Shown: positions 43,623 to 62,182 of the stretch, one piece after another | Layout: each line of letters opens with the position of its first letter | How positions within the stretch are numbered: the stretch's first letter is position 1 | Source of the DNA: Bacillota bacterium | GTDB taxonomy: Bacteria > Bacillota > Bacilli > Alicyclobacillales > SLC66 | Direction: 5' to 3' | Assembly: GCA_021805735.1 (NCBI GenBank) | Contig: JAJZEE010000004.1 | Coordinates: forward strand, 1 to 62,839 | DNA: 62,839 nt | Position numbers and translations under genes: made by a program | Notes under the pieces: model-generated | Database searches by the model: none | What the model was told of the DNA's origin: nothing | Seen by the model: the letters and a program-made list of their open reading frames with translations, nothing else

Positions 43623-44630
43623 CTACAACCCAACCCCATACTGGCGCTCATAATACTCCCGATAAGCGCCCGACAGGATGCCCTCCCACCACTGCCGATG
43701 CGCGACATACCACGCGACCGTTTCCGCCAGCCCGCGCTCCAGATCATACGCGGGCGTCCAGCCCAATTCGCGTTTCATCTTCGAGGCGTCGATGGCGTAA
43801 CGCCGATCATGCCCTGGCCTGTCTTTGACAAACGTGATCAGCGACTCGTCACGACCCATGAAGCGGAGAATCATCTTTACAATCTCCAGATTGGTCCGTT
43901 CATTGTGGCCGCCGATGTTATACACCTCTCCGACCGCGCCCTCGCGCAGCACAGCCTCAAGAGCGCTGCAGTGATCCGCTACGTGCAGCCAGTCGCGCAC
44001 GTTGCCGCCGTCGCCATAGACCGGCAGCGCACGCCCCTCCAGCGCGTGGATGATCATCAGCGGGATCAGTTTCTCCGGAAATTGATACGGTCCGTAGTTG
44101 TTCGAGCAGCGCGTGATGACCACCGGCAGGCCGTATGTCTCACAATACGCCCGCGCCAATAAGTCCGATCCAGCTTTTGACGCGCTGTAGGGGCTATTTG
44201 GCGCCAGGCAGGATTCCTCAGTAAAATATCCAGTGGCGCCCAGACTGCCATAGACTTCATCGGTCGACACGTGGACAAACTTCTGCACCCCGCACTCCCG
44301 CGCCGCTTCCAGAAGCACCCGCGTTCCCTCGATATTCGTCCGAACAAACGGCGCGCTCGTCGCAATGGAGCGATCCACATGGCTCTCCGCCGCAAAATGA
44401 ACGACAGCATCGGCGCCAGCCATCGCCTTTGTCACCGCGTCCGCGTCACAGATGTCGCCCCTGATAAACGCGTGGCGCCCTGCGAGTCCTTCCAGATCGC
44501 CCAGATTCACCAGATTTCCGGCGTATGTAAGCGCGTCAAACGTCACCACTTCCACATTCGGGCGGGCAACCATCCTGCGGACAAAGTTGCTCCCGATAAA
44601 CCCCGCGCCTCCCGTGACAAATATGCGCAT
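43623..44630 (-). CDS. rmlB: dTDP-glucose 4,6-dehydratase
   Basis: 335 aa from ATG 44630 (GGAGG 7 nt upstream; a GTG one codon earlier is also open). Extended SDR: FVTGGAGFIGSNFV, HFAAESHVDRSI, STDEVYGSLG, the catalytic YSASKAGSD and VITRCSNNYGPYQFPEKLIPL. Converts dTDP-glucose to dTDP-4-keto-6-deoxyglucose. Part of the minus-strand rmlA-rmlC-rmlB cluster. An internal piece of a paralogue is found at 58084-58545. Confidence 0.95.
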   Translation of the reverse strand: MRIFVTGGAGFIGSNFVRRMVARPNVEVVTFDALTYAGNLVNLGDLEGLAGRHAFIRGDICDADAVTKAMAGADAVVHFAAESHVDRSIATSAPFVRTNIEGTRVLLEAARECGVQKFVHVSTDEVYGSLGATGYFTEESCLAPNSPYSASKAGSDLLARAYCETYGLPVVITRCSNNYGPYQFPEKLIPLMIIHALEGRALPVYGDGGNVRDWLHVADHCSALEAVLREGAVGEVYNIGGHNERTNLEIVKMILRFMGRDESLITFVKDRPGHDRRYAIDASKMKRELGWTPAYDLERGLAETVAWYVAHRQWWEGILSGAYREYYERQYGVGL

Positions 44631-44697
44631 CACTTAACCTCCACATCTCAAAGTACACGCCGCCCGCGCGACTCCGCGATCAGCAGCGTACGGCGCT

Positions 44698-46888: not shown

Positions 46889-47036
46889 CGTCGTCCATAA
46901 TAGAATAGACTGTGGTTGCGCTCACCGCCATGACGCCTCCGTGAGAAGCGAGACATTGCGTGAGAGCCGATGAGAGTGCGGCGGTACAGGCTTCTGAGTA
47001 CCTCCGCGCATGTTCGAGAGAGATAGGGTGGTAACC

Positions 47037-47888
47037 ATGATAGCTCTCCAAAGCGTCACCAAGCACATCACCGACGGTCGCCGCAAGATTCCCATCCTGG
47101 ACGATGTCAACTTGTTCATCGACAAGGGAGAGTTCGTGTCCGTCATCGGCCCGTCCGGATCCGGCAAGTCCACCCTGCTCAACATCCTTGGTCTTTTGGA
47201 CAAGCCTGCGACCGGTAGCTACGTATTTGCGGGCGAGTCAGTGCTCAGTCTGTCTTCCGGGAGATTGGCCGCTTTTCGCAACCAGCGCATCGGTTTTGTA
47301 TTTCAAATGTTCATGCTGTTGCCGCGCATGAACGTCCTGGAAAACGTGGAGTTGCCCTTGCTGTACTCGTCGCTCTCACGCCGCGAACGGCGGCGGCGAA
47401 GCAAAGAGGCGCTCGCTCAGGTGGGAATGCTCGAAAAGACTGGGCAACGGGCCATCCACCTGTCCGGAGGCGAAAAGCAACGCGTCGCCATCGCCAGGGC
47501 ACTCGTGAACAATCCTGAGCTAATCCTCGCAGATGAGCCGACCGGCAATCTCGATGACGACGCCAAGCACGCCATTCTCCATATCTTTTCACAACTGAGA
47601 CGGCAGGGCCGAACCATCGTCATGGTGACGCACGACGTCGAGTCCGCGCGCATCGCGGATCGCTGTCTGCGCATCCACGGCGGTCGCATATCCGCGTATG
47701 ACTTCGGGGTGGGTTCGCCCGCTCCCGCTGGTCTGGCTGCTTTGGCTTCTCCGTCGGCCGCGGCTTCCGCGACTGTTCCAGACGGCGCGAGTGATCGAGC
47801 TGCTGCGACTGCTTCCGACGGTTCGGCTGCCCCAGGTTTGACGTCAGCCGGCGCACGGCCGGACGACCGGGAGGAGGCTCGTCCATGA
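47037..47888 (+). CDS. MacB-type ABC transporter ATP-binding protein
   Basis: 283 aa from ATG 47037 (AGGGTGG upstream). LolD/MacB-like: GPSGSGKSTLLNILGLLDKPATG, Q-loop FQMFMLLPRMNVLENVELPLLY, LSGGEKQRVAIARALVNNP, ADEPTGNLDD. After the ATPase domain comes a tail of about 60 residues rich in Ala, Ser, Pro and Gly, unusual for this family and possibly a flexible linker. The stop overlaps the permease start (ATGA). Likely exports peptides or works on envelope substrates. Confidence 0.88.
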   Translation: MIALQSVTKHITDGRRKIPILDDVNLFIDKGEFVSVIGPSGSGKSTLLNILGLLDKPATGSYVFAGESVLSLSSGRLAAFRNQRIGFVFQMFMLLPRMNVLENVELPLLYSSLSRRERRRRSKEALAQVGMLEKTGQRAIHLSGGEKQRVAIARALVNNPELILADEPTGNLDDDAKHAILHIFSQLRRQGRTIVMVTHDVESARIADRCLRIHGGRISAYDFGVGSPAPAGLAALASPSAAASATVPDGASDRAAATASDGSAAPGLTSAGARPDDREEARP

Positions 47889-49108
47889 GGCTGGCGCGCA
47901 GCTTTTCGGCGGCTTTGCACAGTATGTGGGACTACAAGGGGCGCACGTTCCTCGCGCTTATCGGGATGCTGGTCAGTTCGCTCTTGCTCGCTTTTCTGCT
48001 CGCATTGCTGCACAACTTCCAGACCAGCATCGAGGGTCAGGTGCAGGGCTTCGGCCTGCGGCAGATCGTGGCGATGCCAGGGCGCGTGCTCAACCGCAAG
48101 ATTGGACAGTTTGATTTGAGCACCCTGCTGTCGATTACGACGCTGAACAGCACCCTCACCTACCAGGATGCTGTCAACGTCAAGAAACGGGTGCCCGGCG
48201 TCGTAGCGGCGGTTCCGCAGACCGAGATCGTCGCCAGCGCCCACTACGGCCAGAAATCGACAGAAATCCTCTACACGGGTACGACGCCTGCCTTTGACAA
48301 GGTGTTTCGCCTCACGCTCGCGGAAGGCCGATGGCTCGACCAGACCGATCTGCAAAAAATGGCGCAGTCCATTGTGCTTGGCGCGCAGACCAAGCAGGCG
48401 TTATTTGGCAAAGCGGACGCCGTGGGCAAAACCGTCGTCATCAAGGGTGTACCCTTTCGGGTGGTCGGCGTGCTCGCGCCCAAAGAGCTGATCGGATTCA
48501 ATTTTGACGAGCGGGCCTATACCGAGTATCCGATGGTGATCGATACCACGAATGTCAGGCACGCCTCGATGATCTTCTTCACCGTCAGCAATCACGCGCA
48601 TGTCGATGCGGTCTCAGGACAGATTGACGCTGTGATTTCGAGCGATCACCACGGCACGAAGGACTACATGCTCGTGAAGGCGGACGAGGCCCTGCACATC
48701 GTGAGCATCTTGATGAAACTCGTCACCGCGGTTACAGTCGGCATTGCGGGAGTGTCGTTTCTTGTGAGCGGCATTGGAATCATGAATGTGATGCTGCTAG
48801 TCGTCAATGAGCGCACCCGCGAGATCGGTCTTCGCAAAGCTGTGGGCGCCAAGTCGTATCAGGTGCTGCTGCAGTTTTTGGCGGAGGCGCTCATCATCAG
48901 TTTGGCAGGTTCGGGCATCGGTCTTGGCGTCAGTTATGGCCTGCTCAAGTTGTTGGGGTACTATTTCGCCGCTATTTCCACGCAAATGCCGGGCTATGTA
49001 GTAGAATACAGCCTTCTGTTCTCCATCATCACCGGGTTGGTGTTCGGGTTGGCGCCAGCCTTGAAGGCGGTGCGCGTCCAGCCAGTGGATGCTTTGCGCT
49101 ATGAATAG
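47885..49108 (+). CDS. MacB-type ABC transporter permease (FtsX domain)
   Basis: 407 aa: one N-terminal helix, a MacB_PCD extracytoplasmic domain of about 220 residues, then three helices of the FtsX domain with SGIGIMNVMLLVVNERTREIGLRKAVGA and LALKAVRVQPVDALRYE-like end. Mechanotransmission-type exporter with the preceding ATPase. The lipoprotein gene overlaps its stop by 8 nt. Confidence 0.88.
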   Translation: MRLARSFSAALHSMWDYKGRTFLALIGMLVSSLLLAFLLALLHNFQTSIEGQVQGFGLRQIVAMPGRVLNRKIGQFDLSTLLSITTLNSTLTYQDAVNVKKRVPGVVAAVPQTEIVASAHYGQKSTEILYTGTTPAFDKVFRLTLAEGRWLDQTDLQKMAQSIVLGAQTKQALFGKADAVGKTVVIKGVPFRVVGVLAPKELIGFNFDERAYTEYPMVIDTTNVRHASMIFFTVSNHAHVDAVSGQIDAVISSDHHGTKDYMLVKADEALHIVSILMKLVTAVTVGIAGVSFLVSGIGIMNVMLLVVNERTREIGLRKAVGAKSYQVLLQFLAEALIISLAGSGIGLGVSYGLLKLLGYYFAAISTQMPGYVVEYSLLFSIITGLVFGLAPALKAVRVQPVDALRYE

Positions 49109-49889
49109 GGCCGGGTGGACGCGGCGAATCGGCGCGATTGCAGTCGGCGCGATGCTCCTGACAACGGGGTGCGGCCTATTTGCCTCTTCCGCCGCGCACA
49201 AGCCTACGGAGCGCCCTGCGGCGACTTCCTCTGCGCACGCAGGCAGTACACGAGCCTCTCATCAAGACCATGGCGGGAGCGCCGCGCCGGTCGGACCGAC
49301 GGCCTCCAAGAGGCTAACCGCGTCCTCGACGGGCGCCGCGACCAATCATTCTCATGCGCCAGCGCCGCGCGCCCACGGTGCTGCAGCCAGCGCATCTTCG
49401 GTGGCAGGCGCGGTGCAATCAATGTTCCGCCAGATCGCTCAGTCCAGCGGCGCACAGACAAGTGTTGCGGAACCGGGGAAGTCCACCGGAACGACGTCGA
49501 CATCCGCCGGCCAATCGTCGGCACAGAGCGGAGTGTTGCAAAACGCAGCCCAAAGCAGATCTCTCAAGCCTTCTGAAGCAAAGATTGTGCAGCCCTATGT
49601 CGCAGCGCTCGAATCTCTCCGCGCCCAGTATCTGGCCTCCCTGAGCGCGCTGTACAATCAGGCGCGGGCAGACTATCACCAAGGCAAAGGATCGAAGCTC
49701 GCGATAGAAGCCAAGTATATCCCGCAAATTGTGTCCTTGGAAAACAGCGCGCAGGACCAGGTGAACAGTATTTTGTTTGCGCTGCGGAGTCAACTCGAGG
49801 CGCACGGTTACCCCACGACAGAAATGGATACGCTCCGAACCGACTTTTATAGCGAGGTTCAGCAGGAGATCGCGACGCTCAGAGGGTAG
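49101..49889 (+). CDS. Lipoprotein coupled to the MacB-type transporter
   Basis: 262 aa from ATG 49101, inside the end of the permease gene. Lipobox LLTTGC at about residues 20-25. Then about 120 residues of low-complexity Ala/Ser/Thr, followed by a helical C-terminal domain (about 160-262) with LRAQYLASLSALYNQARADYHQGKG. In this position MacA-like adaptors are usual, but no HlyD/biotinyl-lipoyl motifs are seen, so it is a different accessory protein. Function unknown. Confidence 0.65.
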   Translation: MNRAGWTRRIGAIAVGAMLLTTGCGLFASSAAHKPTERPAATSSAHAGSTRASHQDHGGSAAPVGPTASKRLTASSTGAATNHSHAPAPRAHGAAASASSVAGAVQSMFRQIAQSSGAQTSVAEPGKSTGTTSTSAGQSSAQSGVLQNAAQSRSLKPSEAKIVQPYVAALESLRAQYLASLSALYNQARADYHQGKGSKLAIEAKYIPQIVSLENSAQDQVNSILFALRSQLEAHGYPTTEMDTLRTDFYSEVQQEIATLRG

Positions 49890-50047: not shown

Positions 50048-52552
50048 ATGTCAGTACCCTATCGGATATTGTCAAAACGCGCGTTACTTAATATAGGCGC
50101 CAGCATTATGATGACGACCGGCGCGATCGGGCTCACATCGGTAACCGTTGCGCCAACGGCGTATGCGGCGACGCAACAAGCGACGAACTTGGCTCAATTC
50201 ACAAAATTGGTGGGATATCTTAATCAATTCAATGCAGCTTTACAGAACGAAGGATCAACCACTTATACCAACGTTGAAACTTTTGCTGATAGCGTCTTCC
50301 AAGCCAATGATACGGTGTGGGGCCCCGTACTGTATGGCACTAATTACTCCGGTTCGCCGGCTCAAACAGCAGCCATTAAGTTTATAAAAGACATGGTGAG
50401 TCTCGTGTTGCCCACACCGTCGTCCGGCGTCAAATATCCATTGAAGGCCAGCGTCGCCATGGAGCATCAGATCACCAGTATGTTAAACACGGATTTAAGT
50501 GGGTATATCCCCACCACCACTTTGACTGGCACTGATCTTTACAACTTCTATGAATCCTTCCGAGCGGCCATCATAAATCAATTGCCCAGTGTATTGATTC
50601 ATGGCTCAGCCGGTCAATCGTTGACACAGACCGTTCTCGACCCGGCGCTCGAATCTGCGGTTGCAAGCAATCCGGAATTCAAGGGCATACTTGGCAACCT
50701 AGGACTTTCTGTTAGTCAGATCGCCAATTATCGGCAAAACTTTACCAATACCTTCACATCTCCTACTTACGGAATTGGCGCGGCTGCGGCATTGAACGAC
50801 GCCATTGAAGCCTCTATCAATCCACAATTCAATGGCGCTTCCATCACCGGCAACACCCTCTCTATGACGAGCGGTAGTTCCGGACAGTTCACAGTGATGC
50901 CTGCAAGCGATACTGGATCGACGCTCCAGACATTCTCAATCCCTGGATCCTGGTACACGCTCACCTCTGATAATCCCGGCGCGGTCACTGTATCCCAAAA
51001 CCCGACCACCAAAAGCTGGACGATCAGTGCCGTCGGCGCAGGAACCGCGCACATTCAACTTACACTACGCGGATATCAGCTTAACCAGATCACAGTGAAT
51101 GTCAGTTCTTCAGGAAGCGGAAGTACAACACCACCCCCATCGTCATCGCCGACTTCTCCCACCACCAGCGTGACGGGGGTTGCGGGACAACCGCTGGCAG
51201 CCGCTGTGCTCGGGAACAACGGCACACAAATTCAGGTGACCGTTCCTGCTGAAGACGTCACCCAACCCATTCAGGTCAATATGCAGGCGCTTACGTCACT
51301 GCCAGCCAACGTGACGGCAATCGGCAATGTGTTTCAGGCCATTGAACTGTCTGCTGTTTTGCAGAACGGCGCGGGATCCAGCGGTACCAGTACCCCCGTC
51401 AACTACTTCACCAAGCCGGTGACCATCACATTTACGTTGTCTGGCGCGCCGACGACACCGCTTGTCATCGTATTTTGGAACTCGTTGACACAATCATGGC
51501 AACCGATCTCCAACTTCTCGGTGAGTCAAAACAAGATTACGATGACCACGACGCACTTTACCACCTTTGCCGTGGTGAATGCGAGCAGCGTGCAATCTGT
51601 GAACCGCATCGCAGGTCAAAGAGCGCTTGACACCTCAATTCAGGCAGCGGAAGCAGCGTATCCGGACGGCGCCAGTTCTGTAGTGCTTGCCTTTGCCGGC
51701 CATAAGTTGCCAAGTCCTGACGCGCTTTCCGCCGCAGGGCTTGCTGGCGCTCTTCATGCGCCACTGCTCCTGACGGCGCAAAATCAATTGGATCCGGCGG
51801 TATTGAAAGCGATTCAAGCGCTCGGCGCCAAAACCGTCTATGCGCTCGGCGGCAATCAGGCCATCAGCGACACTGTCGTGAACGCGTTGACGTCAGCGGG
51901 ATTGACCGTAGTACGAAGCTTTGAAGGGAAAACGCTGTACGACACCTCCATGATGATTGACCAGTACATGTATCAGAACAAGCTGACGAGTGCGCAAACG
52001 GTGTTTATCGCCAATGGCCAAACCATGATCGACGCGGTGTCGGCGAGTCCTGTGGCCTACCAGCAGGGCGCGCCCATCATGCTGGTGAAGACAGGACAGA
52101 GCCAACTGACCGCCAGTCAACTCGCCTTCCTGCAATCGGCAGGCATAAAGAACGCCGTAGTGCTTGGCGGCAATTATGTGGTCTCCACGAGTATTGAGAG
52201 TCAGTTGACCCAAACACTCGGCGCCGCCAATGTCTCGCGTCTTGGCGGAAAAACCATGAACGACACTGCCGCGGCCATTGACCAACACTACTTCCCCAAT
52301 GCCTCGGGCGCCGTGCTTTCTTCCAATGGCTCCCCATCAGGCACGTTTGTTGACGCGCTTTCGGCATCCGCTTTTGCCGCCAACAACAATGTGCCAATTC
52401 TCCTGACCAACCAAAATGGCCTGCCTGCTTCGACCGCGCAGTACCTTGCCGGTCAAACCGGACTTCACGCCATTTGGGTCATGGGTGGTCCGAAAGCCGT
52501 AGTGGCCAGTCTGGATCAAACACTGAACGGCAACATCAGTACCACCAACTGA
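50048..52552 (+). CDS. Cell-wall-anchored protein with three CWB2 repeats
   Basis: 834 aa; ATG 50048 follows AGAAGGGGG. Signal peptide cleaved near AYA-ATQ. The N-terminal helical region (about 30-260) is followed by a beta domain with a Big2-like end (VSQNPTTKSWTISAVGAGTAHIQL), a Ser/Pro/Thr linker, a second beta domain (about 400-510) and three CWB2 repeats (about 520-834; VNRIAGQRALDTSIQAAEA, VVRSFEGKTLYDTSMMI, VSRLGGKTMNDTAAAI). CWB2 triplets bind wall polymers non-covalently, so this is a surface or S-layer-like protein. Confidence 0.85.
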   Translation: MSVPYRILSKRALLNIGASIMMTTGAIGLTSVTVAPTAYAATQQATNLAQFTKLVGYLNQFNAALQNEGSTTYTNVETFADSVFQANDTVWGPVLYGTNYSGSPAQTAAIKFIKDMVSLVLPTPSSGVKYPLKASVAMEHQITSMLNTDLSGYIPTTTLTGTDLYNFYESFRAAIINQLPSVLIHGSAGQSLTQTVLDPALESAVASNPEFKGILGNLGLSVSQIANYRQNFTNTFTSPTYGIGAAAALNDAIEASINPQFNGASITGNTLSMTSGSSGQFTVMPASDTGSTLQTFSIPGSWYTLTSDNPGAVTVSQNPTTKSWTISAVGAGTAHIQLTLRGYQLNQITVNVSSSGSGSTTPPPSSSPTSPTTSVTGVAGQPLAAAVLGNNGTQIQVTVPAEDVTQPIQVNMQALTSLPANVTAIGNVFQAIELSAVLQNGAGSSGTSTPVNYFTKPVTITFTLSGAPTTPLVIVFWNSLTQSWQPISNFSVSQNKITMTTTHFTTFAVVNASSVQSVNRIAGQRALDTSIQAAEAAYPDGASSVVLAFAGHKLPSPDALSAAGLAGALHAPLLLTAQNQLDPAVLKAIQALGAKTVYALGGNQAISDTVVNALTSAGLTVVRSFEGKTLYDTSMMIDQYMYQNKLTSAQTVFIANGQTMIDAVSASPVAYQQGAPIMLVKTGQSQLTASQLAFLQSAGIKNAVVLGGNYVVSTSIESQLTQTLGAANVSRLGGKTMNDTAAAIDQHYFPNASGAVLSSNGSPSGTFVDALSASAFAANNNVPILLTNQNGLPASTAQYLAGQTGLHAIWVMGGPKAVVASLDQTLNGNISTTN

Positions 52553-52590
52553 TCGACTGTGGCTGCTCAAGGCCGATGATCGCATCGCGT

Positions 52591-52630
52591 CAAGGCTCCG
52601 CCTCCTTAAGGAGGCAGAGCCTTGATTTTT
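52591..52630 (+). terminator. Rho-independent terminator of the CWB2 protein gene
   Basis: Stem CAAGGCTC...GAGCCTTG with an inner CCTCC/GGAGG helix (52591-52624, one internal mismatch) followed by ATTTTT (52625-52630). Confidence 0.85.
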
Positions 52631-52647
52631 GTTACGCCTTAACCGAG

Positions 52648-54240
52648 TTACTGCGGCGTCGTGACCGACCACACCTTGCCATTCCACGCGCTGGCAATGC
52701 TGAGTCGCCCCACAACCTGCATGATCGAAGCAATCGGCATATATGTCGTTTTGTCTCGTGTCAAAGGATCCAGCGCCACCATGCCAGGCAGACGAAGAAC
52801 CGCCTGTGAACCTATGTCAATGGCGTATGCCCCGCGACCTGGCGCTAGATTCGTGAGCCGCTGCGGCGTTCCAGAAGGCACAGAGAGTGTCCAGACGCCC
52901 TGATTCCAAGTAGAGCCTACGCCGAAGCCGCGCAGCATCTGCATCACGCTCCAGACGGGCATATACGTCGTACCGCCTCGGACCAGCGCGGGCACGATCG
53001 CCTGCGCTTTACCGTTCACGTAGATAGCGCGTTGCCAAGCCTTCAGCGCCGGCATATGTGTAGGGAACGACGGTTTGGTCAATGGCGGCGGGGTGAGCAG
53101 CACGATGTCTTGCGATGCTTGCACGGTCAGCGAGAGTTTTCCCGGTACAACATCGGCGCCAGCGACAGGCACGACGCCCTTCGCCGTGGCTTCATAGACC
53201 AGCGTATCGCGCGTGATAGCGGGATTCGTCAGGGTCACGATGAGCGATTTGCCCGCCGTCGTGTTCGGAAACTCAAAAGCCAGGGACGTCAGAGTATGCG
53301 TCTTTACGGGCAGAGATACGCTCCCCGGTAGCGTATAGGGCGTCACCGTGAACGTGCCCCCGCTCAAAAAGGCGCCGGCCGGCGCAGTGACATTCAGCGT
53401 GCCATATCCGGACAACTGCAACTGCCAATTCCCACCCATCGTCGTCAGTAGTTGCTGAAACAGTGTGCCCGCACCAGACGCGCCTGACGCGCTGGCGCCT
53501 GAGGACGAACCCGACGCGGACGACCCGCCCCCACCCGTCGACGTTCCACCGCTCCCGGAAGCGGCGCCTGTCGTCGAGCCCGAGCCCGACGATCCGCTGC
53601 CGCTCGCGCTGGTTGTTGACCCAAATAGAGACTGGATCGCACTACTAGCGCCTGCAAGGTAGATGACAAACGCTTGGTGCAGGTTCGCGGCGAGCGTTTG
53701 GGCATTGAGCGGAGTCAGCCCCACTAAGTTAAGCATCTCCGAGGGCCCGCCTTCCACGATACTGTTCAGATACGCGACGACATCCGCCGGTTGCACCGCC
53801 GGGTTAATCGCCTGCATGGACGTGATAACAGAATTGACAAGCGACGCCGCCTGCGTCTCTGTAGTCACTTGCTGCGTAAACAGCAGGGTCAAATCCGGCG
53901 TCAGACTCGACGCCGTTTGCGACTCCGTGGCGCTCAGCGTATCCGTACCAAAGAGCACCTCGTTCCAGTCAAACTGCGGACTCGACAGAACGGTCAAAAC
54001 CGGCGCGGATAACTTTTGCGCGAGCCCCCCGTCGTGCGTCTTGGCGGCGTCAGCCGCGATCAGCGCAGCGAGCGCCGTGATACTCGCCTGCAGTGTCGTC
54101 GACGTCTGCGCGGTGGCCGCTTGTGCCGCAGGCGCATATGAACCTGCGACCGCCAGCGCGGTCAGCAGCCACATGTGCGCGGGCCTCATGCGCGGTGTAG
54201 ACTTTCCTATAGGCTTGCGGGCAGATCGGCGTGTATCCAA
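52648..54240 (-). CDS. Exported protein with copper-amine-oxidase-N-like C-terminal domain
   Basis: 530 aa; the TTG start at 54240 is supported by GGAGG at 54252-54256. Signal peptide ends near AQA-ATA. The helical N-domain (about 45-195) resembles that of the convergent CWB2 protein (FDWNEVLFGTDTLSATESQTA against NDTVWGPVLYGTNYSGSPAQTA). Then a Ser/Gly linker (about 200-245), a beta domain and two copies of a YVNGK...GTTYMPVWSVMQMLRGF...TWNQGVWTL-type motif as in Cu_amine_oxidN1 (PF07833) domains. Probably wall-associated; function unknown. Confidence 0.75.
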   Translation of the reverse strand: MDTRRSARKPIGKSTPRMRPAHMWLLTALAVAGSYAPAAQAATAQTSTTLQASITALAALIAADAAKTHDGGLAQKLSAPVLTVLSSPQFDWNEVLFGTDTLSATESQTASSLTPDLTLLFTQQVTTETQAASLVNSVITSMQAINPAVQPADVVAYLNSIVEGGPSEMLNLVGLTPLNAQTLAANLHQAFVIYLAGASSAIQSLFGSTTSASGSGSSGSGSTTGAASGSGGTSTGGGGSSASGSSSGASASGASGAGTLFQQLLTTMGGNWQLQLSGYGTLNVTAPAGAFLSGGTFTVTPYTLPGSVSLPVKTHTLTSLAFEFPNTTAGKSLIVTLTNPAITRDTLVYEATAKGVVPVAGADVVPGKLSLTVQASQDIVLLTPPPLTKPSFPTHMPALKAWQRAIYVNGKAQAIVPALVRGGTTYMPVWSVMQMLRGFGVGSTWNQGVWTLSVPSGTPQRLTNLAPGRGAYAIDIGSQAVLRLPGMVALDPLTRDKTTYMPIASIMQVVGRLSIASAWNGKVWSVTTPQ

Positions 54241-55143: not shown

Positions 55144-55342
55144 TGCGTCACCTCTTTGCCTGTAGTATACCGCGCGGATCTGCGACTGCCAATCGTCGAC
55201 GCACATCGAGCTTCCAGCGCCGTCGCACCCGTTTCCCACGCTTCTGACAGCCGCCAGTGTCATCTTTCAATGGAAGATTCTCCGTGCATCTGCTATACTT
55301 GCGCCAACTTGTCCACCGATGATAGGGAGAGGAAGTGAGATC

Positions 55343-56089
55343 GTGTCAATAGTACATAAACCCCTACGCCTCGCTTCTGCGCTGGCCCTGTCGACTTTCC
55401 TGATCATGGGAACCGCTTCATCCGCGCTGGCGCAAGCAAACAGCCAAAACCACGTCGCGCAGAAGCACGAAACGCACAAATCTGTGGACGCAAAGCAGCC
55501 GGCGCACAAGCACGTTGCTAACAAGCACGTTGTTAACAAACACGCGGGCACGAAACACCCTCACGGTAAGCATCCAGCCGCAATCAGCCCCATGATCAAG
55601 ATGAGACGGGAGGCCTTGGCGCTCGAGGATGCACTCTTAACCCTTAACACCAATCGCATTGATCTGTTATACGCCTATCTGCAAAGTGTCTCCCTGACGC
55701 AAGGGGAAGTCAACCAAATCAAAGTCAACGCCCGGCAGATGGAACAGATTGTCGGCAACGCCACCGGAGCCGCGTCCCTGACCGAAACGCAAAAGCTGGA
55801 ATTGATCCGCCTATTTGCCTCGAGCATCGACCAAGCACACCTGCGAGTGGCCTTCGTGTCGCTCGATGGGAAACCGATCAATATCGCCGATTACAAGCTG
55901 AGCGTGAAAAATCACATGAAAGTGTTGCTCGAGGACAGCCGCGGAAGGCAATTGGCCGCCATGCGCCCGCACCCCGGCGATCTCTCGTCAGGCGTGATCG
56001 TGGGCTATGTGAGAGCCGTGGATATAGCAGTACAGGCTGCGTATGAGTTGGAGCGGTATCACCACTTCGTGCCCATGCCGCGTTTTTGA
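55343..56089 (+). CDS. Exported His/Lys-rich protein of unknown function
   Basis: 248 aa from GTG 55343 (AGAGGAAG upstream). Signal peptide ends near ALA-QAN. Residues about 35-80 are a low-complexity segment rich in His and Lys (repeats such as HKHVANKHVVNKHA), a possible metal- or polyanion-binding tail. The remaining 165 residues are helical, without a known domain. The next gene, a degenerate sortase-fold protein, starts 38 nt downstream, suggesting a two-gene unit. Confidence 0.65.
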   Translation: MSIVHKPLRLASALALSTFLIMGTASSALAQANSQNHVAQKHETHKSVDAKQPAHKHVANKHVVNKHAGTKHPHGKHPAAISPMIKMRREALALEDALLTLNTNRIDLLYAYLQSVSLTQGEVNQIKVNARQMEQIVGNATGAASLTETQKLELIRLFASSIDQAHLRVAFVSLDGKPINIADYKLSVKNHMKVLLEDSRGRQLAAMRPHPGDLSSGVIVGYVRAVDIAVQAAYELERYHHFVPMPRF

Positions 56090-56127
56090 GACGGTCGACT
56101 AAACTACGTGTCCGGAGGCAACCGCTT

Positions 56128-56772
56128 ATGAACAGGAAATCGACCGCAGCCGAATTGCCGATCGCTGGCCCAGATGGAACGCGTTCAAAGAAACGCCGAC
56201 GCAAGTGGCCTTGGTTGATCGTCGCCGTTCCCACGGGCCTGATCGTGTTGGCGCTGGCGGGCGCCACGCTCCGGTACGGCTTTGCCACCGTGCAGCAGGC
56301 GGCTATCCTGGGTTATACTCTCATCTTTCCTTATACCCCTTCCACCGCCCCCAACACCTTCGCAGGGCCGTGGACATACCTTCCTGAGCCCCGGCAGCAC
56401 ATCGGCCACTTGCGCATCGCGACCCTGGGCATTGATCTGCCCATCGTCCAAGGAACGTATGCCAATCAGACCGCGCAGGTAGGGCACTTCGCAGGAAGCA
56501 CGCTGCCGGGCCAAGGCAGCGACGCCATACTCGTGACGGAGAATCCCACGCTGCGCAAAGCCGGAAGCCTGCGGCCAGGCACCGTGATTCAGTGGATTGC
56601 GCCACAGGGCGTCTTTGCCTACCGCGTAACGGGTTCCGCGCCGATTCGGTCGCTCGGCAACCTGAGCGGCGTGAATCGCGAATCATTGGCGCTCGTCGAG
56701 CAGTCGATCACAAGAAAGGGCAAAACCCAACTCTTCGCCGTCTTCGCCAGTCCAGAGTTCTCTAGCAAATAG
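56128..56772 (+). CDS. Sortase-fold (class D-like) protein lacking catalytic residues
   Basis: 214 aa from ATG 56128 (GGAGG 9 nt upstream). A basic N-terminus and one transmembrane helix (about 28-48), then the sortase beta-barrel: IGHLRIATLGIDLPIVQGT, VGHFAGSTLPGQGSDAILV, LRPGTVIQW and FAYRVTGSAPI. In active class D/E sortases the barrel carries GNVVLAGHR, TCYP and a late Arg. Here the His position reads ILVTENPT, the Cys position LFAVFASP, and no late Arg is seen. It should therefore be inactive as a transpeptidase and may act as a structural or binding protein. Pieces of paralogues recur at 56895 and 62689. Confidence 0.68.
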   Translation: MNRKSTAAELPIAGPDGTRSKKRRRKWPWLIVAVPTGLIVLALAGATLRYGFATVQQAAILGYTLIFPYTPSTAPNTFAGPWTYLPEPRQHIGHLRIATLGIDLPIVQGTYANQTAQVGHFAGSTLPGQGSDAILVTENPTLRKAGSLRPGTVIQWIAPQGVFAYRVTGSAPIRSLGNLSGVNRESLALVEQSITRKGKTQLFAVFASPEFSSK

Positions 56773-57124: not shown

Positions 57125-58036
57125 GTGGTGATACCGCGAAATAGCAAGGACTTGGTGCTCAAACATCTTGCACTGGCGTTGGGTGATCATGCGCTGAGTG
57201 CGTTTGGCGTCGCGCGACAGGCCGAGGTGAGACGGGCGCTGCCTACGGAATTGGACAGCGTGGATCTGCGGACCGATTTTCTGGACTTTGTCCTTGAAAT
57301 GTCCGATCGGACGATTCTGCACCTGGAGTTTCAGTCGAAAGTGGAAAAGACGCTGCACCGCTTCCTGCTGTATGACGCGCGGTTGCATCAGCAGATGCTG
57401 CGTCCAGTGCGGACGGTTGTGTTGTATACAAGCGGCGTCAAGCACGCGCAAAGCATACTCGATATTGGAACAGCGGTCTATCACGTTGAGAATGTGTTTC
57501 TGAGCGAGCGAGACGGCAATGCGGTACTTTCACGCATTGAAACGCATCTGGACGAAGGTCGGTGGATTCCAGAAGATCGAATCGAACTCGCGTTTGTGTT
57601 GCACATGCGACATCAAGGGGTCACGCGCAAACAGGTTTTGCGGCGCTGTCTGGACACGGTAGACCGAATACCGGATCGGACAGAACAGGCATATGTGATC
57701 GCGCTGTTCCTGGGAATGAGCGCGAAACGGCTCACGGCGAAGGAACAAAAAGACTTTGAGAGGAGGATGGACGACATGTTTCAAAGAATGGTGGACGCCG
57801 TTGAAGAGCGACTGGTGCAAATCGACGCCAAGTTGGCTGCTGCTGCCATGAAGGCGCGGGAGGAAGGCGAAGAGCAAGGCATCGAGAAGGGCCGGGAGGA
57901 AGGTCGACAGGAAGGCCGCAATGAGGAAAGGCTTGCTCTTGCAAAGCGTCTGCTTGAAATGGGAGACGGCGTGGAGAAGGTTTCCAAAGTGACAGGATTG
58001 TCGCTCGATGAAGTCCAACGTCTTGTTTCCCACTGA
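57125..58036 (+). CDS. Rpn family recombination-promoting nuclease / putative transposase
   Basis: 303 aa, apparently complete. PD-(D/E)XK core: VDLRTDFLDFVLEM then TILHLEFQSK (the D...ExQ pair of the family), LVLYTSG-like strand VVLYTSGVKHA, a helical middle and a charged REEGEEQGIEKGREEGRQEG coiled region, ending VTGLSLDEVQRLVSH. Rpn proteins such as E. coli RpnA are DNA endonucleases that raise RecA-independent recombination. The promoter TATAAT lies just upstream and the 5' flank is shared with the copy at 61229. Confidence 0.82.
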   Translation: MVIPRNSKDLVLKHLALALGDHALSAFGVARQAEVRRALPTELDSVDLRTDFLDFVLEMSDRTILHLEFQSKVEKTLHRFLLYDARLHQQMLRPVRTVVLYTSGVKHAQSILDIGTAVYHVENVFLSERDGNAVLSRIETHLDEGRWIPEDRIELAFVLHMRHQGVTRKQVLRRCLDTVDRIPDRTEQAYVIALFLGMSAKRLTAKEQKDFERRMDDMFQRMVDAVEERLVQIDAKLAAAAMKAREEGEEQGIEKGREEGRQEGRNEERLALAKRLLEMGDGVEKVSKVTGLSLDEVQRLVSH

Positions 58037-58056
58037 GCCTGTGATGCTGAACCACG

Positions 58057-58084
58057 AACCCGGCCAGAGCGGTGCGGGTTTTTT
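58057..58084 (+). terminator. Terminator after the Rpn gene
   Basis: AACCCG (58057-58062) pairs with CGGGTT (58075-58080) and is followed by TTTT. The rmlB fragment starts directly after it. Confidence 0.65.
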
Positions 58085-58545
58085 GCCATACACGGGAAGC
58101 GGCTGGCCTTCCAGAGCATGGATGATCATCAGGGGAATCAGCTTCTCAGGAAACTGATACGGCCCATAGTTGTTCGAACAGCGCGTGATCACAACCGGCA
58201 GCCCGTATGTTTCATGGTACGCCCGCGCCGACAGATCCGGCCCGGCCTTGGACGCACTATAGGGGGAATTCGGCGCAAGCGCCGTCTCTTCGGTAAAATA
58301 GCCCTCCTGGCCAAGCGTGCTGTACACCTCGTCCGTCGACAGATGCACGAACTTCTGAACGCGAAGCTCCTGCGCGACGGCGAGCAGCACACGCGTGCCT
58401 TCGACATTGGTCCGCACAAACTCCGCGCTGGACGCAATGGACCGATCCACGTGGCTCTCGGCCGCAAAGTGTACGATCGCCTGCACTCCCCGCATGGCGC
58501 TGCGCACCGCAGTCACATCGCAAATGTCGCCGCGAACGAACAGAC
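58084..58545 (-). pseudogene. Internal fragment of a second rmlB
   Basis: Encodes RmlB residues of roughly 55-210: RGDICDV, HFAAESHVDRSI, HLSTDEVYSTLG, NSPYSASKAG, VITRCSNNYGPYQFPEKLIPLMI, then stops matching at both ends. It lacks the Rossmann loop and the C-terminus, so it is not functional. It is diverged from the intact rmlB, so it came from a paralogue rather than a recent copy. Confidence 0.82.
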
Positions 58546-58625
58546 GACCTCTTCCACATACAAGCGGACGACAAGAAACCCGCACAGCACGCTCCGGCCA
58601 GGTTCGCGATTCAAGTATCCCAGGG

Positions 58626-59339
58626 TCAGTGGGCGAGAAGGCGTTGGATATCCTCCGGCGACAACCCCGTCACTTCAGACACCAGCGCAACGTCCATGCC
58701 TCTCGCCAACATCACTCTTGCCACTTCCCTGCGCCCTTCCTCCCGGCCCTTCTCGATCCCCATCTCTTCGCCTTCTCCTCGCCCTTCAGCCCGCGCCTTC
58801 TCGGCCGCCTCCGCCAACTCGGCGTCGATTTGCACCAGCCGCTTTTCAACGGCGTCTGTCATCATCTTAAACGTATTTGCCATCCGCCCCTCGACCTCCT
58901 TCCATTCCTTTTCCCGGAGTCGTTTTGCACTCATTCCAAGGAACAACGCGATCACATACGACCGCTCCACCTGATCTGGAATCCGGTCCACCGCGTCCAG
59001 ACAACGGCGCAAAACCTGTCTCCGCGTGGCCCCCTGGTGTCGCATGTGCATCGCAAACGCCAGTTCGATGCGGTCTTCCGGTTCCCATCGGTCTTCGTCC
59101 AAATGCGTTTCGATTCGTCTGAGCACCGCAAGGCCATCGCGTTCGATCAAGAACACATTCTCGACGCGATACATCGCCGACCCGATATCGAGTATGGTTG
59201 GCGCGTGCTTGACGCCGCTTGTATAAAGCACCACCGTCCGCACTGACCGCAGAATCTGCTGGTGCAGCCGCGCGTCATACAGCAAGAATCGATGCAGCGT
59301 TTTTTCTTCTTTCGATTGAAACTCGAGGTGCAAAATCGT
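58626..59339 (-). pseudogene. Rpn-family nuclease, 5'-truncated
   Basis: Nearly identical to the copy at 61229 from ETILHLEFQSKEEKTLHRFLL to the end (LSPEDIQRLLAH), but about 80 N-terminal residues including the first catalytic Asp are missing. Homology starts abruptly at 59339, where a 37-nt sequence also found at 62427-62463 is attached. An open frame continues to 59402 through unrelated sequence. Confidence 0.8.
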
Positions 59340-59376
59340 TTCAACTGTATCCGTCACCGCAATCAGACTCCACCTT
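59340..59376. repeat. 37-nt exact repeat, copy 1
   Basis: Begins TTCAACTGTATCCGTCACCG and is identical to 62427-62463. It sits exactly at the break of the truncated Rpn gene; on its other side is unrelated sequence. Candidate recombination site or the edge of a lost element. Confidence 0.7.
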
Positions 59377-59566
59377 CTGGGGCGAAACAATCTGGCGGCC
59401 ATTTCTTTCAGTTGGTGGGAGCCCGAGGCGGCGGACAGTTGCCTGCGCGCCGAGATCGCGACAAGTATCCTTCACGAACACGCCTGTAATACGGTATGAT
59501 GAGAAGGACAAATGGACGATGCCGCCTTACGCCGTGTCATGCACGCATTCGGGGAGAGGGAAGCCG

Positions 59567-59734
59567 ATGACGGTTCGTGTAGGAGTAAAGGGGGAACTTA
59601 TCGCTTGGGCGATCGAGCGTTCGAGGTTGCCTCTTGAAGATCTCTTGTTCCGTTTCCCCTCGCTCACAAAATGGGGGCATGGAGACGCAAATCCTACACT
59701 TCGAGTACTCGCGCACCATCTGGGGGTTGTGTGA
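59567..59734 (+). pseudogene. XRE/ImmA-associated HTH protein, N-terminal fragment
   Basis: 55 codons after GGGGAGAGGGAAG: VKGELIAWAIERSRLPLEDL, KFP-like FRFPSLTKW and NPTLRVLAHHLGV, the N-terminal pattern of proteins with a helix-turn-helix followed by an ImmA/IrrE peptidase (toxin-antitoxin or stress systems). The peptidase domain is missing; the frame stops at TGA/TAG right after the HTH. Confidence 0.55.
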
Positions 59735-59943
59735 TAGGGGGAGGTTCTCCCCGAACCCGGTTGGGTGCGGTTGTCAGTCTTCGTTTGGCAGCATGATGGT
59801 GATCACCGGTTCCATGGCATCGCCCGCAGGACACACGGACTGAAATATGAGGATCCGTTGTGCCGGGCGCCGCAGTTTCGTGTCCGTCATAAAGCCCACC
59901 TCAAATCTCAGTCGTGACGTGGACGATCCGCCTCGTTTGATCA
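59735..59943. other. Gap without a recognisable gene
   Basis: About 210 bp. No ORF with coding character or repeat was recognised; probably debris of the broken HTH gene and its former neighbour. Confidence 0.4.
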
Positions 59944-60807
59944 TCAGTGATGTTCTTCTTGCAGGCGCTCCAACTCCTCAACCGGAATGCCTGTCAGCCG
60001 GGATACTCTCACCACATCCAAGCCATCCTCCAGCATGGCCTTAGCCGTTTCCAGCTTGCCTTTCAGCTTGCCTCTGTCAAAGGCTGTTTCAGCGTGTTTC
60101 TGGAGGTTGTACAGATCGCGCAACTCCTTATCCCGCGAAATGTAAGCCGCCCAGTTATCCGGATCACGACTGATCTCCTCCCACAAGTCAAGCGCTTTTC
60201 CCATTGTTGGATCGGACATTGCGATCGCCTCCAGACCTGTCCTGATTTCCTTGTGCTGGTTGGCATCCAGCAACAACAGCCAGCGCTCCAGCGGATGCTG
60301 CAGACAGACGCTCAACTGTGTGTGATACAAATGTCTGAATTTGGGCAGTTCTATAAAGTGGATCTCCAGCACATCTGACAAGCGGAAATGTTCCACATCC
60401 TCGCATACATGATACGACGTGTGATACCGATTTGTCGAGGCAAAGACCGTGAAATCCACAATATTGATGGTGATCGTCTGCGGAAAGTTCGTCCACTGGG
60501 CGTTTTTCCTGATCTGCGCTTTGAAAATGGTCGCCCAGTAGAACAGCGTCCGTTTGGCAATATCTTGTTCAGCGATCTGAATCTCGATATTGATGTGTTC
60601 CCCCGCATCCGTGCGTACATAGACATCCAACCGGGACCCACGATCTTTCTTGTGGTCGCCTGCAAATTCCGAGTCGGCAAACTCAATGGCCGTGATCCTG
60701 TCGGCGCCCGTTCGATGCAGCAAGGCGTTAAGAAACGCCATCAATATCTCAGCGCTTCCCGGTTGACCAAACAGCAGTTTAAACGCAACGTCGTTCTTTG
60801 GATCCAT
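59944..60807 (-). CDS. Rpn family nuclease / putative transposase (PDDEXK_2 type)
   Basis: 287 aa from ATG 60807 (frame open to 60945; GTG 60825 is another option). MDPKNDVAFKLLFGQP start, SRLDVYVRTDAGEHINIEIQIAEQ (D...ExQ catalytic pattern), KRTLFYWATIF, and a tail KLKGKLETAKAMLEDGLDVVRVSRLTGIPVEELERL. A different subfamily from the 57125/61229 copies, closer to classical PD-(D/E)XK transposase-like proteins. It may be intact. Upstream frame sequence (60808-60945) looks foreign and may be the end of another broken gene. Confidence 0.8.
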   Translation of the reverse strand: MDPKNDVAFKLLFGQPGSAEILMAFLNALLHRTGADRITAIEFADSEFAGDHKKDRGSRLDVYVRTDAGEHINIEIQIAEQDIAKRTLFYWATIFKAQIRKNAQWTNFPQTITINIVDFTVFASTNRYHTSYHVCEDVEHFRLSDVLEIHFIELPKFRHLYHTQLSVCLQHPLERWLLLLDANQHKEIRTGLEAIAMSDPTMGKALDLWEEISRDPDNWAAYISRDKELRDLYNLQKHAETAFDRGKLKGKLETAKAMLEDGLDVVRVSRLTGIPVEELERLQEEHH

Positions 60808-60945
60808 CAGTGGATGTTCTTTCACCAGTATCACCTGGCCCAGTTCGTCCGCCAACTGCCGCAGCAGCGCCACCTTGGCGTTGTGCGCCCGGTTGGCAAA
60901 CCCCTGTTGCACCTGCGGCATTTCGTCACGCGCCAAGCGATGCAA

Positions 60946-61197
60946 GGCGCGCCCCAGCTCGCCATATTCCCCTCGCAGCGGGACGCCACAAAGGTTGTCC
61001 CATTCCGAGAAGTGTTCCAGAAACCACAGGAACTGCGGGGATGAATGGACGGCGAAACATCATAATACCGAACGTAGAGGCCCGTCCTGTTTTGATAGTC
61101 ATTGACCTCTTCGAGCAGTTTCATGGTGCCGCTGTGGTTGCTCACTCTAACTGGCGGTGAAGAGGTTGCCGCCAGCTTGGTGCGCCTTATCAAATAT
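60946..61197. other. Segment with broken coding sequence, unassigned
   Basis: About 250 bp between two Rpn genes. Several short open frames on both strands, none matching a family I know. Ends at the conserved Rpn 3' flank (TGTACGGG at 61198). Confidence 0.35.
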
Positions 61198-61228
61198 TGT
61201 ACGGGTTCGCGATTTAAGTATCCCTGGC

Positions 61229-62182
61229 TCAGTGGGCGAGAAGGCGTTGGATATCCTCCGGCGACAACCCCGTCACTTCAGACACCAGCGCAACATCCAT
61301 GCCTCTCGCCAACATCACTCTTGCCACTTCCCTGCGGCCTTCCTCCCGGCCCTTCTCGATGCCCTTCTGCATGCCCTCCTCGATCCCCTTCTCTTCGCCT
61401 TCCCCTCGCCCTTCAGCCCGCGCCTTCTCCGCCGCCTCCGCCAACTCGGCGTCGATTTGCACCAGCCGCTTTTCAACGGCGTCTGTCATCATCTTAAACG
61501 TATTTTCCATCCGCCCCTCGACCTCCTTCCATTCCTTTTCCCTGAGTCGTTTTGCACTCATTCCGAGAAACAATGCGATCACATACGACCGCTCCGCCTG
61601 ATCTGGAATCCGGTCCACCGCGTCCAGACAACGGCGCAAAACCTGTCTCCGCGTGGCCCCCCGGTGTCGCATGTGCATCGCAAACGCCAGTTCGATTCGG
61701 TCTTCCGGTTCCCATCGGTCTTCGTCCAAATGCGTTTCGATTCGTCTGAGCACCGCATGGCCGTCCCGTTCGATCAAAAACACATTCTCGACGCGATACA
61801 TCGCCGACCCGATATCGAGTATGCTTGGCGCGTGCTTGACGCCGCTTGTATAAAGCACCACCGTCCGAACTGACCGCAGAATCTGCTGGTGCAGCCGCGC
61901 GTCATACAGCAGGAATCGATGCAGCGTTTTTTCTTCTTTCGCTTGAAACTCGAGGTGCAGAATCGTATGATCGGACATTTCAAGCACGAAGTCCAGAAAA
62001 TCGGTTCGCAGATCCACGCTGTCCAGTTCCGTGGGAAGCGCCCGTTTCACCTCAGCCTGTCGCGCGACGCCAAACGCAGTGAGCGCATGGTCACCAAACG
62101 CCAGCGCAAGATGTTTGAGTACCAGGTCCTTGCTGTTACGCGGTATTATTGCGATTCCTCCGCTTCTTCCATTATACGTCAC
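61229..62182 (-). CDS. Rpn family recombination-promoting nuclease / putative transposase
   Basis: 317 aa, close paralogue of the 57125 product with the same RNSKDLVLKHLALAFGDHALTAFGV start, DLRTDFLDFVLEM and TILHLEFQAK core. The C-terminal charged region is longer (EGEEKGIEEGMQKGIEKGREEGR). Where the 57125 gene has its GTG start, this copy has ATA codons, so it must start at the upstream ATG 62182 or is poorly translated. The upstream TATAATGG and spacing are conserved. Confidence 0.8.
   Translation of the reverse strand: MTYNGRSGGIAIIPRNSKDLVLKHLALAFGDHALTAFGVARQAEVKRALPTELDSVDLRTDFLDFVLEMSDHTILHLEFQAKEEKTLHRFLLYDARLHQQILRSVRTVVLYTSGVKHAPSILDIGSAMYRVENVFLIERDGHAVLRRIETHLDEDRWEPEDRIELAFAMHMRHRGATRRQVLRRCLDAVDRIPDQAERSYVIALFLGMSAKRLREKEWKEVEGRMENTFKMMTDAVEKRLVQIDAELAEAAEKARAEGRGEGEEKGIEEGMQKGIEKGREEGRREVARVMLARGMDVALVSEVTGLSPEDIQRLLAH

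Follow-up and report, generated by a model that had tools for sequence, protein, structure and literature searches.

The window analysed here is a whole stretch of 62,839 nucleotides (contig JAJZEE010000004.1 of assembly GCA_021805735.1, a Bacillota bacterium of the order Alicyclobacillales), and its subject is a pair of convergent genes, P0001 and P0002. We observed that the N-terminal domains of the two products (N-domains, or heads) appear to be homologous members of a new domain family and that they stand before different tails: three CWB2 repeats in P0001, and two repeats resembling the Cu_amine_oxidN1, or stalk, domain in P0002. We consider it fairly probable that both are wall-attached surface proteins of a 'head plus anchor' build, in which anchors have been exchanged under kept heads. 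An initial annotation, made from this DNA alone, had described two convergent open reading frames (ORFs), each beginning with a signal peptide; the frames were confirmed, and each opens with a signal-peptide-like stretch, as judged by eye. The parts of the two proteins are as follows (pLDDT, predicted local distance difference test; pTM, predicted template modelling score; Ig, immunoglobulin).

50048-52552, plus strand: P0001, 834 aa; signal peptide (by eye), N-domain, Ig-like region, linker, beta domain, three CWB2 repeats
50168-50827, plus strand: P0001 N-domain (residues 41-260); profile match 7.7e-23; all-helical by prediction, pLDDT 46.8
50831-51121, plus strand: P0001 Ig-like (Big_2-type) region, directly after the N-domain; hhalign to relatives
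51161-51592, plus strand: P0001 beta domain, upstream of the anchor; weak hhalign match
51611-52528, plus strand: P0001 CWB2 repeats, three in tandem, wall-anchor type; PF04122
52648-54240, minus strand: P0002, 530 aa; TTG start, ATG at residue 18 possible; signal peptide (by eye), N-domain, Gly/Ser linker, beta domain, two stalk-like repeats
53617-54117, minus strand: P0002 N-domain (residues 42-208); helical bundle, pLDDT 90.4, pTM 0.85; A-only profile 2.7e-7
53086-53463, minus strand: P0002 beta domain; profile of P0002's own and three other B-type ORFs
52654-53031, minus strand: P0002 two stalk (Cu_amine_oxidN1-like) repeats, possible wall anchor; profile of relatives

Relationship between the two N-terminal domains

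Below, N-domains of the P0001 side are called A-type and those of the P0002 side B-type; relatives of both were collected from whole genomes. Comparison of 4 A-type with 8 B-type N-domains by hhalign gave E 1.6e-7 and a score of 51.6, against 18.9 for the reversed control and at most 20.3 and 27.9 in 200 column shuffles and 200 block shuffles, respectively. With 13 A-type sequences the values rose to E 4e-11 and 72.9 (100 block shuffles, 34.2 or less). We then used a profile of 11 A-type relatives that excluded P0001, its orthologue in genome G008 and every B-type sequence, and searched 1313 ORFs, drawn from the window and from 18 fetched loci. This leave-out profile found both P0001 (7.7e-23) and P0002 (2.7e-7), and all 20 of its matches with an independent E below 0.1 were A- or B-type. 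A B-type profile lacking P0002 and its G008 orthologue found three A-type proteins (8.1e-10, 1.1e-9 and 5.6e-6). The common N-terminal domain that the initial annotation had placed around a W..VL(Y/F)GT motif was thus borne out by hhalign and by a profile built without either protein, and the motif region is aligned between A and B in the comparison of 13 with 8 sequences. Two further proposals from the same source did not hold: the later LGL...N..Q.F segments occupy non-equivalent positions in that alignment, and a beta domain common to P0001 and P0002 is unsupported (hhalign E 0.015, score 19.8, 60 shuffles up to 21.3).

It could be argued that the likeness of the heads reflects chance or composition, the two being unrelated Ala/Ser/Thr-rich helical regions. 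Direct BLASTP of P0001 against P0002 was not significant (E 1.0 for the N-domain piece), P0001 and its two orthologues, the CWB2-type heads, matched the B-type heads weakly (hhalign E 0.0021, score 26.7), and the B profile described above missed P0001 among the 1313 ORFs; moreover, the leave-out A profile recovered just 4 of 10 B-type ORFs. However, a profile that contains neither protein finds both, the scores far exceed those of the column, block and reversal controls, and the order of helices is compatible in the two structure models, so that we regard chance as very improbable. Because the pairwise and reverse searches are weak while the leave-out profile finds both proteins, the homology runs through intermediates such as L078 and L007/L081. 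We judge from these sequence comparisons that the heads of P0001 and P0002 are homologous and that their domain family is new.

AlphaFold2 predicted the P0002 N-domain (8 sequences) with confidence as an eight-helix bundle (pLDDT 90.4, pTM 0.85). The prediction for P0001 (6 sequences) was poor (pLDDT 46.8, pTM 0.46) but also all-helical, with eleven helical elements, eight of which could be matched by hand, within the limits of this poor model, to the eight helices of P0002 in order and position; the others are one four-residue helix and two terminal elements. The earlier suggestion had been that predictions of unrelated N-terminal folds would refute the shared domain; the present ones do not refute it, though only that for P0002 is confident. 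Fold searches covered the P0002 model. Foldseek returned no match at E 0.001 or better, and the best VIA-align 2 match was an Entamoeba serine acetyltransferase (Z 7.8, root mean square deviation 3.8, 133 residues aligned); this Z lies within the range that the tool gives as common for helical bundles, and we neither claim nor exclude a fold.

The N-domain had been called undescribed, and likewise neither Pfam nor NCBIfam gave a match above cut-off, and the PDB gave no sequence match at E <0.1. Some sub-threshold matches were put down to chance: PhageMin_Tail (one of the 8 B members, 3.3e-4), nSTAND_NTPase4 (0.034 in 1 of 3 A members), DUF2408 (0.0027 in the L078 N-domain, below its own cut-off) and two PDB chains at 0.1 and 0.24. 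The domain was not named in titles and abstract openings of the literature on Alicyclobacillus, S-layers, CWB2, SLH, CsaB and Cu_amine_oxidN1, in which subscription journals were thinly covered, and no literature joining the copper amine oxidase N-terminal domain, the cell wall and Alicyclobacillus was found. Among 42 candidate stretches from viral contigs, none was confirmed.

Anchors and other parts that follow the head

The three CWB2 repeats previously assigned to the end of P0001 are clear: Pfam places PF04122 in three stretches (E 5.2e-42, 142.7 bits against a cut-off of 24.9), and these were the sole CWB2 matches found in the source genome, G000 (3758482 bases, 170 contigs, 96.75% complete). 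SLH (PF00395) gave no match in P0001 at E 1 by Pfam, and the SlpA-type S-layer model NF033435 stayed below its curated cut-off (70.1 against 650 bits). CWB2 is described as a wall anchor that requires three repeats and bears the motif P[ILV][ILV][LV] (PMC4973711); the corresponding residues in P0001 are PLLL, PIML and PILL in repeats 1, 2 and 3, respectively. As described in the same report, Cwp2 and Cwp66 of Clostridioides difficile resemble P0001 in being secreted proteins with three tandem CWB2 repeats, placed C-terminally in Cwp2 as in P0001, and that organism has 29 CWB2 proteins (PMC4973711), against the one found in the source genome. P0001 differs from both in its N-domain, which has no described family.

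Between head and anchor, the Ig-like region of P0001 matched its counterpart in 6 relatives (hhalign E 6.2e-6, score 34.5; 100 block shuffles, 24.9 or less); Pfam calls Big_2 above cut-off in relatives L113, L140, L142 and L078 and none in P0001 itself. The beta domain matched, weakly and over 47 columns, the region before the SLH repeats of 7 SLH-bearing relatives (E 5.2e-4, score 29.4; 60 block shuffles, 23.3 or less). The P0002-type beta domain, which recurs in all but one (L077) of the 8 other B-type ORFs that are full or nearly so, gave E 0.055 against that same region by hhalign.

The tail of P0002 had been likened to a copper amine oxidase N-terminal domain. By Pfam this does not stand, as PF07833 (Cu_amine_oxidN1) scores 13.8 bits against a cut-off of 24.2; yet a profile of the repeats of Alicyclobacillales relatives, built without P0002, found both of its repeats (3.5e-16 and 8.8e-16), and in relative L078 such stalk repeats pass the PF07833 cut-off (27.6 bits) and adjoin PG_binding_1. 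P0002 thus resembles PF07833 proteins in its terminal tandem repeats and differs from them in remaining below the Pfam cut-off and in that a Pfam scan found no amine oxidase part.

The head was also found outside the order. A 13-sequence profile matched 13 of 348 genomes of the class, two of which lie outside Alicyclobacillales; a 12-sequence profile to which these two had been added matched 8 of 398 genomes of the phylum, G000 among them; of 101 relatives of G087 it matched 12, and five of these belong to the order. The outside-order genomes came to 14, and 13 were kept; G487 (L138, 5.4e-6) reads phage-type and was dropped as a chance match. Eight of the 13 head ORFs (L113, L114, L133, L134, L135, L137, L140 and L143) carry SLH repeats, three each by Pfam in seven and by an SLH search in that of G671. 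The other five (L136, L139, L141, L142 and L144) are short or at a contig end, and L142, the one scanned with Pfam, shows Big_2 and no anchor. The eight SLH proteins follow one plan: a signal peptide, then N-domain and Ig-like region, a linker, a beta region and SLH. The Ig-like region passes the Big_2 cut-off in L113 and L140 and was recognized by eye in the rest. P0001 has this same plan with the anchor last and CWB2 replacing SLH, which is why we suggest that it is the CWB2-anchored version of the SLH surface protein. The three CWB2-type heads matched the 13 outside-order heads with E 2.3e-8 and score 57.4 (hhalign; 100 block shuffles, 35.4 or less). The B-type head was not detected in the same comparison (E 0.029, score 20.1; 100 shuffles, 19.9 or less), so that it joins the family only through the A-type heads of the order.

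Four of the 8 SLH genomes (G112, G386, G624 and G671) have, directly downstream of the gene for the head protein, a gene for another secreted product. This product begins with a short helical head, continues with what by eye is a beta region and ends in an anchor-type tail of its own, SLH in three genomes and Cu_amine_oxidN1 in G624 (Pfam, E 4.8e-31). In G712 the sequence stops at a contig end beyond the head gene. Once trimmed and aligned by hand, the four downstream heads matched the second half of the outside-order N-domain (E 9.7e-6, score 38.4; 200 block shuffles, 25.4 or less) and matched neither the B-type head (E 0.037) nor the order's A-type heads (E 0.039) by hhalign. We do not claim the downstream protein as an orthologue of P0002, and comparison does not establish that the P0002 tail and the PF07833 tail of G624 are of the same kind, the Alicyclobacillales stalk profile having missed the tails in G624, though Pfam calls PF07833 in one. 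Since such downstream pairs exist, neighbouring head proteins with different anchors are not unique to the window. Both secreted genes that flank the SLH head protein of G624 (L134 4223-5797 and L134 3-1775) end in stalk-type repeats, called by Pfam in the downstream gene and by eye in the upstream one. Downstream of the head protein in G059, G077 and G087 (L113, L140 and L143) lies a Wzz/GNVR chain-length determinant, at a gap of about 0.9 kb in G087, which hints at a link with a surface polysaccharide locus.

Within the order, CWB2 repeats follow the A-type head in G000, G001 and G008. Stalk repeats follow it in G046, G049 and G056 and precede it in G036, G047 and G049. The 'two attachment modes' proposed earlier would fit relatives in which the same head appears on CWB2, SLH or stalk. 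In G021, G028, G047 and G052, which are alike by eye, the head precedes a CelB-type part. The 959-aa ORF of G021, the sole one of these scanned against families, matched an arabinosylfuranosidase NCBIfam model weakly (32.4 against 625 bits), and the scan found no match to CWB2, SLH or stalk. CelB is Aaci_0048 of Alicyclobacillus acidocaldarius, reported as a secreted endoglucanase of 959 aa (PMC5901876), and from its length and type, without sequence comparison, the G021 ORF is probably CelB. In it the N-domain stands after the signal peptide, as in P0001 and P0002, but an enzyme part follows instead of a wall-type tail.

These ORFs raise the alternative that the N-domain is a docking or carbohydrate-binding domain, one that recruits secreted proteins to wall or substrate and forms no part of a lattice. 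The position of the head before an enzyme part, its occurrence with stalk and PG_binding modules, and a reported homology of the CelB N-terminal domain to carbohydrate-binding domains (PMC5901876), in a stretch that may or may not be the head, would all suit such a role. The all-helical prediction and the lack of Pfam or NCBIfam matches above cut-off and of a significant PDB match to a binding module speak against it, and we consider the alternative unlikely.

Gene pairing and surroundings

Across the 59 genomes of the order, a 3-sequence A profile matched 16 genomes at E 0.01 and an 8-sequence B profile matched 11; two weak A matches were set aside (G033, E 0.002; G020, E 0.008). The B profile also picked up A-type proteins in G022 and G046 and as second matches in G036 and G047 (6.1e-6, 1.9e-10, 8.6e-7 and 2.4e-6), which we read as a direct A-B link. 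Strong B-type genes occur in nine genomes (G000, G001, G008, G030, G036, G047, G049, G053 and G056); carriers include A. hesperidum, A. acidiphilus, A. tolerans and A. mengziensis, and three further ones are metagenome-assembled genomes. Strain NBRC 100859 of A. acidiphilus has an A/B pair. An A-type gene lies within about 4 kb of the B-type gene in 7 of the 9. The exceptions are G053, with none found within 19.9 kb, and G030, in which one flank is invisible because the B gene is ~350 bases from a contig end. The pair is convergent in the window and in G001 (whose B gene is split across two contig ends, L072 and L086), B then A in G008, and A then B in G047, G049, G056 and also G036, where about 4 kb separate the two. 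G002, a 91% complete draft from the window's genus, gave no match to either head, so that the pair may be dispensable. When 34 N-domains were placed in a tree, whose root is arbitrary, the B-type sequences came together in a single group (100/99), as did the 13 from outside the order (84/70). Origin of the B lineage within the order would fit this tree, in which the deep split is weak.

One further feature lies between the two genes.

52592-52623, no strand assigned: terminator-like inverted repeat followed by a T run, from the sequence; scan match at 52611-52623, in a scan that found 8 against 5.3 expected

Upstream of P0001, at 47010-49889, lie two LolD/MacB-like genes of ABC transporter type together with a gene for a lipoprotein-like product. 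The set is conserved in G001, and in G008 its ABC members are found some 5 kb from the A and B genes. Positions 55319-56772 encode a secreted-looking protein and a sortase-like one (class D model, 37 bits against a cut-off of 140), and their G001 homologues share contig L086 with the start of the B gene. An ORF at 57125-58036 is near the cut-off for Rpn nuclease/putative transposase (48.6 against 52.1 bits). Within 57125-62182, the ORFs at 58629-59402, 59947-60945 and 61232-62182 are partly alike and on the other strand, and by eye a similar end occurs upstream of P0002 near 54500; these Rpn-like ORFs may have helped to invert P0002. The segment also includes a dTDP-glucose 4,6-dehydratase-like ORF (57530-58585) covering only model positions 53-210; a copy that looks full-length lies at 43626-44633.

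CsaB, surface-layer readings and anchor exchange

CsaB pyruvylates the wall polysaccharide that SLH binds. This pyruvylated polysaccharide is given as the SLH ligand in a report that in turn cites work on csaB (PMC4973711). The CsaB model scored above cut-off in all 8 genomes with SLH-anchored head proteins and in 0 of 14 order genomes tested beside them; over the whole order, none of 59 genomes passed the cut-off of 213 bits, and two gave weak matches of 49 and 57 bits. SLH matches numbered 1 to 7 in 10 of the 14 order genomes, as compared with 11 to 54 in the eight SLH-anchored ones. P0001 differs from its SLH-anchored counterparts in that it has CWB2 in a genome in which CsaB was not found, where they have SLH in genomes with CsaB. 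Since few, rather than zero, SLH repeats accompany the lack of CsaB, its absence does not amount to absence of SLH.

Could P0001 and P0002 jointly form an S-layer lattice that is held to the wall in two ways? The head is common to SLH-anchored surface proteins, the A and B genes are linked, and in G624 an SLH head protein is followed directly by a secreted protein with a Cu_amine_oxidN1 tail. However, G002 belongs to the same genus and lacks a match to either head in its 91% draft, heads sit on CelB-type ORFs as well, and the source genome has a competing candidate: a 999-aa open frame with SLH and, by eye, Ig-like repeats (G000:C48, L145 4720-7716), which may rival the pair as the main surface-layer protein. 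An S-layer of these two proteins is possible, but we do not favour it and think it improbable.

We prefer to regard P0001 and P0002 as wall-attached proteins with kept heads and exchanged anchors. The head is the uncatalogued helical N-domain, followed in P0001 by the Ig-like region. Elsewhere in Bacillota, head and Ig-like module sit on three SLH repeats, an anchor type that binds CsaB-pyruvylated polysaccharide; in the window's order, with no CsaB above cut-off, the head sits on CWB2 (in the window's genus and one related genus) or occurs with tandem stalk domains (in Alicyclobacillus). P0001 would then be the CWB2-anchored counterpart of a widespread SLH surface protein, and P0002 a member of an order-specific sister lineage with a stalk-like tail, mostly kept near an A-type gene. 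Head homology, the differing tails, gene linkage and the distribution of CsaB were computed; we infer binding of the tails to the wall of this organism, a link between CsaB loss and the change of anchor, and joint action of the two heads at the surface.

Several observations weigh against this preferred reading. The source genome keeps 6 SLH matches with no CsaB found, and the 999-aa frame is one carrier of SLH. The CsaB contrast may reflect perhaps a single evolutionary event, and CsaB is expected anyway in genomes with SLH-anchored proteins. The comparison with the 13 outside-order heads is biased toward a match, because these were gathered with profiles that included P0001, and the direction of change is an assumption, because the split between order and outside is weak. 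The PIML of the second CWB2 repeat would depart from the published motif, and the CelB-type ORFs carry the head without a detected anchor. A broader proposal holds that a coat head has been kept across Bacillota while its anchor was exchanged among unrelated SLH, CWB2 and stalk modules after CsaB loss, the head serving as an assembly interface that docks partners, even CelB; we offer this as a doubtful extension.

In summary, an uncatalogued domain family connects a probable secreted endoglucanase with surface proteins of SLH type and with paired proteins of wall type. The family presents a natural case of an apparently exchanged wall-holding part under a retained outer part, seen in a lineage without a CsaB match above cut-off, and through it the survival of surface proteins after loss of a wall ligand becomes testable. 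The tails of the relatives suggest that surface proteins of bacteria can change anchor and retain their outer part.

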